In this document: positions 1 through 1,667 of the stretch, one piece after another
Position numbering within the stretch: position 1 is the first letter of the stretch
Layout: every line of letters starts with the position of its first letter
Assembly (NCBI GenBank): GCA_002878315.1
Contig: PNIW01000032.1
Location: 24,800-88,799, forward strand
Length of the DNA stretch: 64,000 bases
Source: Mesoaciditoga sp.
GTDB taxonomy: Bacteria > Thermotogota > Thermotogae > Mesoaciditogales > Mesoaciditogaceae
Reading direction: 5' to 3'
Translations under genes and position numbers: made by a program
The notes under the pieces: generated by a model
The model's input: the letters and a program-made list of their open reading frames with translations, nothing else
What the model was told of the DNA's origin: nothing
Database searches by the model: none

Positions 1-384
1 GGCCCCCTCAAATGTTGAAAGCGCTATAACGGCGGCCCAGAATCTTGGAAAATCGAAGATAGTGCCTATTCCGTAATAGACAAGAAGTATTATCACAAGC
101 AATGGAATGTTGCGAAAAATGGTAACGTAAACGCCGGTAAGATCTCTAAGGGTTTCGCTTTTGGAAACCCTCGCTATGCCTCCAAGTACTCCTATAACAA
201 AAGAAAGTAAAATACTGAATATTGAAATTTGAAGGGTTATAAGCATTCCCATCAGATAGAGTTTTAGGTAATCAAAGGGCACAATATTCCAGTGAAATGG
301 ATATTGCAAGGAAATAAGATAATACATACCTCCAAAGACCACGATCAGTATGATCGCGGTAGATAATTTTCGAAACCATCTCAT
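1..384 (-). CDS. Amino-acid ABC transporter permease (HisM/GlnP type), truncated by window edge
   Basis: Reverse-strand translation MRWFRKLSTAIILIVVFGGMYYLISLQYPFHWNIVPFDYLKLYLMGMLITLQISIFSILLSFVIGVLGGIARVSKSETLRDLTGVYVTIFRNIPLLVIILLVYYGIG..., with the typical polar amino acid permease 'VYVTIFRNIPLLVIILLVYYGIG' segment; open to window base 1. Confidence 0.88.
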   Translation of the reverse strand, partial: MRWFRKLSTAIILIVVFGGMYYLISLQYPFHWNIVPFDYLKLYLMGMLITLQISIFSILLSFVIGVLGGIARVSKSETLRDLTGVYVTIFRNIPLLVIILLVYYGIGTIFDFPRFWAAVIALSTFEGA

Positions 385-393
385 TCACATCAC

Positions 394-1170
394 CTATGAA
401 TTTGGTTTGTAATTAACAAACCATTTGTCGTAAAGTTCCTGCCATTGGCCGCTTGCCTTTATGTATGTTATGAAGGTATTTATCCAATTAAGAAGTTCCT
501 GTTCATTTTTCTTTATCGCTATTCCATAATTTTCGTTTGTAAGCGTCTCATCTACTGTGGCAAGTTGATTATATTTTTCTACCATATATCCGACGTAAGT
601 TGAATCTGCAACGGCAATGTCGGCCTTTTTCATCGCAACCTGCAATGCGGCTTCGTCCATTGTATTGAATTCAAGTATTTTTGCATTTGGGAAGATTTTC
701 TTTGCCGCATCTTCACCTGTTGTTCCTATCTCGACGGCCACCGTTAAATTTTTCTGATCTTGAAGGCTTTTAACGGTCGGATTAGTATAAACTGATTTGT
801 TGTAGAGGATCTTCTGCCCTATTGTAAAGTAAGGGATAGAGAAATCGACCATCAGCGCTCTTTTTGGAGTTATCGTCATCGCCGATATTATCATGTCGAA
901 CTTTCCGGAGACAAGAGACGGAAGAATTCCAGACCATTGTGTTGGAACTATTCTGAGTTTGACTCCAAGTTCATTCGCCATTAACTGAGCCATATCGACA
1001 TCAAATCCTACGTAATTGCCGTTTGAATCCACACCCTCAAATGGCATGTAATGTACATCCATTCCCACTGTCAGATAACCCGAAGAGATTATCTTGTCAA
1101 GTGTGTCCGCCCCTACCACCACTGTTAGAATGACAAGAGAAAGGACAAATAACGCAAAAGTTTTACCCAT
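394..1170 (-). CDS. Polar amino-acid ABC transporter substrate-binding protein (SBP family 3)
   Basis: Signal peptide MGKTFALFVLSLVILTVVVG, then SGYLTVGMDVHYMPFEGVDSNGNYVGFDVDMAQLMANELGVKLRIVPTQWSGILPSL. Start set at Met15 of the ORF track (GGGAGGTGCTGT RBS). Confidence 0.93.
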   Translation of the reverse strand: MGKTFALFVLSLVILTVVVGADTLDKIISSGYLTVGMDVHYMPFEGVDSNGNYVGFDVDMAQLMANELGVKLRIVPTQWSGILPSLVSGKFDMIISAMTITPKRALMVDFSIPYFTIGQKILYNKSVYTNPTVKSLQDQKNLTVAVEIGTTGEDAAKKIFPNAKILEFNTMDEAALQVAMKKADIAVADSTYVGYMVEKYNQLATVDETLTNENYGIAIKKNEQELLNWINTFITYIKASGQWQELYDKWFVNYKPNS

Positions 1171-1194: not shown

Positions 1195-1300
1195 ATATAA
1201 AAAAGGCCACATCTTTGATGTGAAACCTTCTCATGCACGATCAAGAAGCCGCTTCACCGGGCGGTTGCTTGACGTGCTTTCTATTTTCAATTATTGAAAA
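1195..1300 (-). promoter_or_regulatory. Candidate structured leader RNA with intrinsic terminator upstream of the amino-acid SBP gene
   Basis: On the minus strand: long hairpin gcacgtcaag-caa-ccgc-ccggtgaa-gcgg-ctt-cttgatcgtgc (1235-1277), then cacatc-aaa-gatgtg-gcc and a T-run (about 1196-1222), then the SBP RBS. Confidence 0.55.
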
Positions 1301-1667
1301 TTTTTTCACATTTCCCCCTTAATTCAAAGGTTTGAAATATCTTATCATTGATATTTGATCAATGTCAATTAAAAAAACATTAAATTTTGTTTTCTTATTT
1401 TTTTTACAGCAAATATAATCCAATTTGATTTTAAATAATGAAGTATTTTGGTTTGAAATCAGGTAAAATCATACTTGGTTTGAAATATTTTGACGGGATG
1501 ATTCCTTAACATAAGAAGCGTGGAGATTGACAATCTTCGATTGAAATCGCCATGCATGAGCGACTTATTATCAGTTTTTTTCATTCTTGATATTACACAG
1601 GCGGGGTGCCTTTGGCGATCTTTTCTATGTTATAATATAATGAATTAACATTGAGGAGGTCTTAAAT

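Follow-up and report, generated by a model that had tools for sequence, protein, structure and literature searches.

A probable family of leader-peptide attenuators with gene-matched control codons in the Mesoaciditogaceae

The 64,000-nucleotide stretch of Mesoaciditoga DNA analysed here (the window) carries on its minus strand a stable hairpin and an intrinsic terminator ahead of an amino-acid ABC importer, and the question raised by this locus is what kind of sensor, a ligand-binding RNA or something else, the hairpin might belong to. The initial annotation described a riboswitch-like leader, and the parts that it listed are all present as described: a two-tier hairpin, here called hairpin 1 (1277-1235, minus; GCACGTCAAG-CAA-CCGC-CCGGTGAA-GCGG-CTT-CTTGATCGTGC), a terminator stem (1223-1207), a T-run (1204-1199) and the Shine-Dalgarno sequence of the substrate-binding protein (SBP) gene. 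Hairpin 1 pairs GCACG.TCAAG with CTTGA.CGTGC and, in its inner tier, CCGC with GCGG; it has a folding energy of -18.6 kcal/mol and is supported by covariation in relatives. The terminator (1199..1223, minus; TCACATC-AAA-GATGTGG-CC-TTTTTT) was identified by folding and by a terminator scan that found one site against 0.1 expected, and the SBP-gene Shine-Dalgarno sequence comes next. The leader as a whole (1330-1180, 151 nt) folds with a minimum free energy of -42.9 kcal/mol, compared with -30.0 +/- 3.7 kcal/mol for 200 dinucleotide shuffles (z = -3.46), just one of which folds as well. Downstream lie the genes that the leader would regulate, encoding a family 3 SBP (394..1170, minus), whose top named match, a lysine/arginine/ornithine SBP, falls below cut-off, and an ABC permease (1..384, minus) with a profile match to HEQRo_perm_3TM, truncated by the window edge.

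The proposal that this is a terminator-type leader outside the known Rfam families was upheld by covariance-model scans, which gave no match for it at the gathering threshold and unrelated weak matches only when relaxed to E values of up to 10. Within the window there was no match at the gathering threshold to the lysine riboswitch (RF00168) or any other known riboswitch and none to the T-box model, and the known leader-peptide families (His, Leu, Thr and Trp leaders) matched neither the window nor 15 related loci. Elsewhere in the window, a ribosomal protein L10 leader (RF00557; 36354-36466, plus) scored 46 bits, barely above its cut-off of 44.

What the initial annotation had overlooked is an open reading frame around the hairpin, with a Shine-Dalgarno sequence of its own. 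This leader ORF runs from GTG to TGA (1309-1241, minus) and encodes a 22-residue peptide rich in basic amino acids, VKKFSIIENRKHVKQPPGEAAS; its Shine-Dalgarno sequence, AAGGGGG (1314..1320, minus), lies 4 nt 5' of the GTG and was assigned from the sequence and a frame test. Farther upstream is a weak promoter-like site, TTGACA-18-TAAGAT (1339..1368, minus), which has 10/12 consensus matches where about 1.6 such sites would arise by chance in an AT-rich region. Hairpin 1 is formed by the 3' half of the ORF, and the TGA (1243-1241) sits in its 3' arm; 70 nt separate this stop from the importer gene, with the terminator in between. A further pairing, predicted by folding at -12.1 kcal/mol, joins GTGAAGC to GTTTCAC and CTTCTTG to TGAGAAG as a putative antiterminator (1220..1257, minus). 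The candidate control codons AGA AAG CAC GTC AAG, for Arg10 Lys11 His12 Val13 Lys14 (1268..1282, minus), were recognised from their placement relative to the antiterminator and from the match to the downstream gene across the classes described below. NCBIfam and Pfam scans of the 22-residue peptide and a full-text literature search with its sequence gave no match.

A peptide search located a second place in the window's genome and three places in one genome of the same genus, ahead of different genes. All of the latter three loci have the hairpin, the terminator GGCCACATC/GATGTGGCC and a segment, TYCACCGGGCC, whose sequence is complementary to the loop of the hairpin. Besides the copies in the genus, the peptide search of 60 relatives gave chance matches, of which L004 and L005 were inspected and rejected. 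A first covariance model, built from five copies in three Mesoaciditogaceae genomes, independently recovered the other seven genomes, and a second was built from 23 copies. With these models the element was found in 10/10 genomes of the Mesoaciditogaceae (phylum Thermotogota) searched, a sample that includes Athalassotoga saccharophila NAS-01 and Mesoaciditoga MAGs, in 24 copies altogether; E values with the second model range from 1e-20 to 3e-9, and one copy at a contig edge has 2e-5. Three model matches (G004:C3, G007:C62 and G000:C68) were rejected as resembling terminators near other genes and not leaders. A pattern scan for the strict form across one genome per species (84,980 species) returned 13 matches, in Mesoaciditogaceae and a few unrelated genomes. 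Five of these, from Streptomyces, Natronomonas, an Actinomycetota MAG and Serinicoccus, were taken as chance on the organism alone, their loci unread; one Streptomyces stretch matched the pattern on both strands.

The reading frame is retained in every copy. In the frame of the core codons (CCC GGT or GCT GGT), 24/24 copies have a start codon 16-24 codons 5' of the core, preceded by a Shine-Dalgarno sequence that matches over 4 nt or more, and a stop in or at hairpin 1; in the two other frames a start with a Shine-Dalgarno sequence occurs in 0/48 cases. This result is to be read with the loose Shine-Dalgarno criterion in mind and with the copies being few, related and non-independent (six target classes). 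Copies differ in length by whole codons, and one such difference is a 3-nt insertion in the loop of the hairpin.

The genes behind these leaders differ, and so do the nine codons 5' of the core. A polar amino-acid ABC importer follows eight of the 24 copies, and its leaders read ENRKHVKQP, NKKHHVKYS or NRKHHVKYP; three further copies, reading LNRKHIKYL, precede an APC amino-acid permease. Lysine synthesis accounts for the dapF leaders (4/24; KNKKYVKCP or ENKKYVKQP), followed by dapA-like and dapB-like ORFs where the locus was read (G002), and the lysC (aspartate kinase) leaders (2/24; FNKKQVKYS), the next ORFs in G006 being dapB-like and dapA-like. Two copies precede an oligopeptide-binding protein (Opp) gene and read NERRHHRVL, with zero lysine, and five precede a gene for an Xaa-Pro dipeptidase-like amidohydrolase, with an Opp-type binding protein next in G004, and read IIYVVLILP or VVYIVLILP, one His being the sole basic residue. 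The names DapF and aspartate kinase rest on scores above curated cut-offs; at the level of substrate, those of the transporters and the dipeptidase fall below such cut-offs and are predictions, and the DapA/DapB genes and the Opp-type neighbour were recognised by sequence alone. The control codons can thus be sorted into KKxVK for lysine synthesis, [RK]KHxxK for importers, [RK]KH for importer or permease, RRHHR for Opp and IIxVVLIL for the dipeptidase-like gene, and, as far as sequences can tell, they follow the target gene while the scaffold stays constant. Each leader has just two to four Lys codons, below the number of control codons in classical his or thr leaders, a point that weighs against classical attenuation. 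A weak match (L159, G004:C25:30792-30903, minus; E = 0.01) encodes KFNNNNNPLDIGRWG, with five Asn codons (NNNNN), and is followed by a terminator and an asparagine synthetase A-like gene.

Conservation and compensatory changes ahead of orthologous genes were looked for and found. The element can form three mutually exclusive helices, namely hairpin 1, an antiterminator (GCCCGGTGRA:TYCACCGGGC) and the terminator, with energies of -18.8, -27.7 and -18.2 kcal/mol, respectively, in the importer leader of A. saccharophila; in five folded relatives the antiterminator ranges from -19 to -32 kcal/mol. For hairpin 1 and the terminator, 16 cells were changed on both sides compared with 7.1 +/- 2.2 in shuffles (0/500), and 91.5% of cells were paired compared with 34-48% when slid. 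At three positions the antiterminator pairs are of compensatory types. Three dipeptidase leaders differ in all three arms at once, with C to T in the 5' arm of the antiterminator, G to A in the segment that the two helices share and C to T in the 3' arm of the terminator, which fits both alternative helices being of importance.

The locus is therefore very probably a ribosome-mediated transcription attenuator that senses lysine or basic amino acids through its leader peptide. From the anatomy, the conservation, the reading frame and the codon-to-gene match we infer stalling, switching and the direction of switching, which would proceed as follows. The ribosome would initiate at the GTG at 1309 with RNA polymerase ahead of it. 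If charged Lys, Arg and His tRNAs were scarce, it would stall at Arg10-Lys11-His12 and cover the 5' arm of hairpin 1, so that the next segment could pair with the segment that opens the terminator, and transcription would enter the importer genes. If they were ample, the ribosome would reach the UGA (1243-1241) and cover the 5' arm of the antiterminator, the terminator would form and transcription would end; termination would likewise be allowed if the leader went untranslated and hairpin 1 formed. Read from the sequence, the distance from the doubled control codons to the antiterminator arm on their 3' side is about 14-27 nt, and a ribosome stalled there would, given the size of its footprint, leave the arm free. 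The same scaffold with other control codons would sense Lys ahead of lysine synthesis, Arg/His ahead of the oligopeptide importer and Ile/Val/Leu ahead of the dipeptidase-like gene.

Three other explanations have to be weighed against attenuation. Of the riboswitch-like leader originally proposed, the part that stands is a conserved, terminator-based leader upstream of the importer; the ligand-binding aptamer finds no support. That hairpin 1 is an amino-acid aptamer directly controlling the terminator, and thus a new metabolite riboswitch, would agree with a stable, conserved and covarying structure ahead of a terminator and amino-acid genes, and since Rfam gives no match the idea contradicts no known family. 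However, the stem-loop is short, antiterminator pairing accounts for its conserved loop, and the hairpin occupies the 3' half of an ORF whose frame is held in 24/24 copies and whose codons 5' of the antiterminator vary with downstream function. No single aptamer could control genes for Lys, Arg/His and Ile/Val/Leu alike, where codons vary on a fixed scaffold; a ligand-binding RNA would be expected to have a fixed core and would offer no reason for a frame, so the combination of a kept frame and codons that vary with gene function favours a sensor read by the ribosome. We regard the riboswitch as extremely improbable.

Nascent-peptide arrest of the TnaC or SpeFL type, in which a peptide ending in xVKYxPGGxA would halt its ribosome in response to a free small molecule, would also use the reading frame. 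The PGGxA end is similar across all classes, and Pro-Pro-Gly is a slow sequence for the ribosome. The PGG part, however, overlaps the arm of the antiterminator, and RNA pairing can account for its conservation; the residues beyond this end differ strongly among classes, and PGG is missing from the attenuator-like leaders found in other families of Thermotogota, all of which makes peptide arrest very unlikely. It could also be argued that the leader is unregulated, a constitutive terminator with a short ORF whose sole effect is to help ribosomes initiate or reinitiate at the importer gene. A general role of short leader ORFs in reinitiation has been proposed (PMC4833913), and the switch of the window copy is weak, but that proposal concerns leaders that stop about 10 nt from the gene, in contrast to the 70 nt and intervening terminator found here, and it would leave the covarying alternative helices and the gene-matched codons unexplained; we give it hardly any credence.

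If the window copy is an attenuator, its switch appears to have been weakened. Compared with A. saccharophila (L003) it is 11 nt shorter between the antiterminator and the terminator loop (window 1217-1222), and because of the missing 11 nt its terminator stem is CACATC/GATGTG and its antiterminator is short and in two parts. In an equilibrium fold of the free segments the terminator is preferred over the antiterminator, and antitermination in this copy must therefore be kinetic, depending on the order of synthesis, or weak. The genome assembly is a draft in 126 contigs; a sequence error is possible, though nothing points to one.

Weaker model matches in other Thermotogota families, read locus by locus, resemble attenuators of this kind that are either distantly related or of separate origin. 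In families f2, f11 and f4, the hisZ-like genes of five loci (L136, L130, L133, L141 and L127) stand behind HHH or HHHH leaders that overlap a hairpin and terminator, the hisZ-like gene of L136 having a hisG-like gene next to it downstream; an Rfam scan of the leaders of L136, L133, L141 and L127 gave no match. Three f2 loci (L093, L094 and L095) have an Arg-codon leader ORF (RRTRCRW, RRTKCRW) and a terminator ahead of argG. Family f7 has AGG AGG CGC (RRR) in a candidate frame before a terminator and argJ (L134, L142), in front of an amino-acid SBP the leaders RHHSRCGLR or RHRSRCGF (L126, L131, L138), the SBP of L126 being 44% identical to that of the window, and a leader reading NTLNNQPEPK, with Asn, Gln, Pro and Glu codons, and a terminator before citrate synthase (L128, L135, L140), which is perhaps a sensor of the Glu family.

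The picture that we favour, with some reserve, is that a single homologous scaffold spread from operon to operon by copying and gained new specificities through changes in a few codons (Lys, Arg/His, Ile/Val/Leu, perhaps Asn), that in Mesoaciditogaceae the lysine form takes the role of the lysine riboswitch, and that leader-peptide attenuation is general for amino-acid control in Thermotogota, with His, Arg and perhaps Glu-family leaders elsewhere. Under stricter filters the lysine riboswitch (L-box, RF00168) was found in 31 of the 61 genomes searched, and in none of the 10 Mesoaciditogaceae genomes. Of 18 such loci read, 17 precede an asd-like gene, recognised by sequence, and one precedes an SBP 52% identical to that of the window. 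Homologous importers are thus preceded by a lysine riboswitch in one family of Thermotogota and by a leader with Lys/Arg/His codons in Mesoaciditogaceae, which supports lysine as a signal. This distribution suggests that one sensor may stand in for the other, with either direction of change. If so, a family of attenuators that read lysine codons in thermophilic Thermotogota, which complements the L-box in its occurrence and stands before homologous genes, would be a clear natural case of sensor substitution, its paralogues would suit the study of attenuator re-targeting by codon change, and tight coupling of transcription and translation in thermophiles would be implied.

In the literature searched, leader attenuators are on record for Proteobacteria, Actinobacteria and some members of the Firmicutes, and lysine control at the level of RNA is that by the L-box. 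Naville and Gautheret (PMC2965389) added Bacilli to leader-peptide systems earlier known just from Proteobacteria and Actinobacteria, and Seliverstov et al. (PMC1262725) listed lysine under the L-box, with no lysine leader in Actinobacteria. Our search for a lysine leader or Thermotogota attenuators returned nothing beyond a Thr/Lys leader suggested in Sinorhizobium meliloti (PMC10117765); Lopatovskaya et al. 2010 (cited in PMC4833913) may hold Thermotogae predictions. The S. meliloti leader, SEP5, resembles the present one in being an ORF with lysine codons and a suggested regulatory role, but is a single suggestion with mainly Thr codons, in an unrelated organism and before an unrelated gene. 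The Salmonella speF leader orf34, with two Arg codons, is likewise a short ORF on which amino-acid-dependent ribosome position alters RNA folding (PMC6386406), although its architecture and outcome are different, it concerns polyamine synthesis and RNA stability, and its sequence is unrelated. The lysine riboswitch governs lysine genes and, in one related genome, the homologous importer, but is a ligand-binding RNA of about 180 nt with no leader ORF. Closest are the classical attenuators (trp, his, ilv, leu, thr and phe in Proteobacteria; trp, ilv and leuS in Actinobacteria; hisS/hisZ in Bacilli), which likewise carry pathway control codons in a leader ORF and alternative helices 1:2, 2:3 and 3:4 with an intrinsic terminator before the operon. 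The mechanism proposed here is thus an ordinary one; what is unusual, compared with those systems, is the use of Lys or mixed Lys/Arg/His codons, the Thermotogota host with leaders outside the Rfam leader families, and a single homologous RNA scaffold that, by a swap of codons, is shared across operons of different amino acids.
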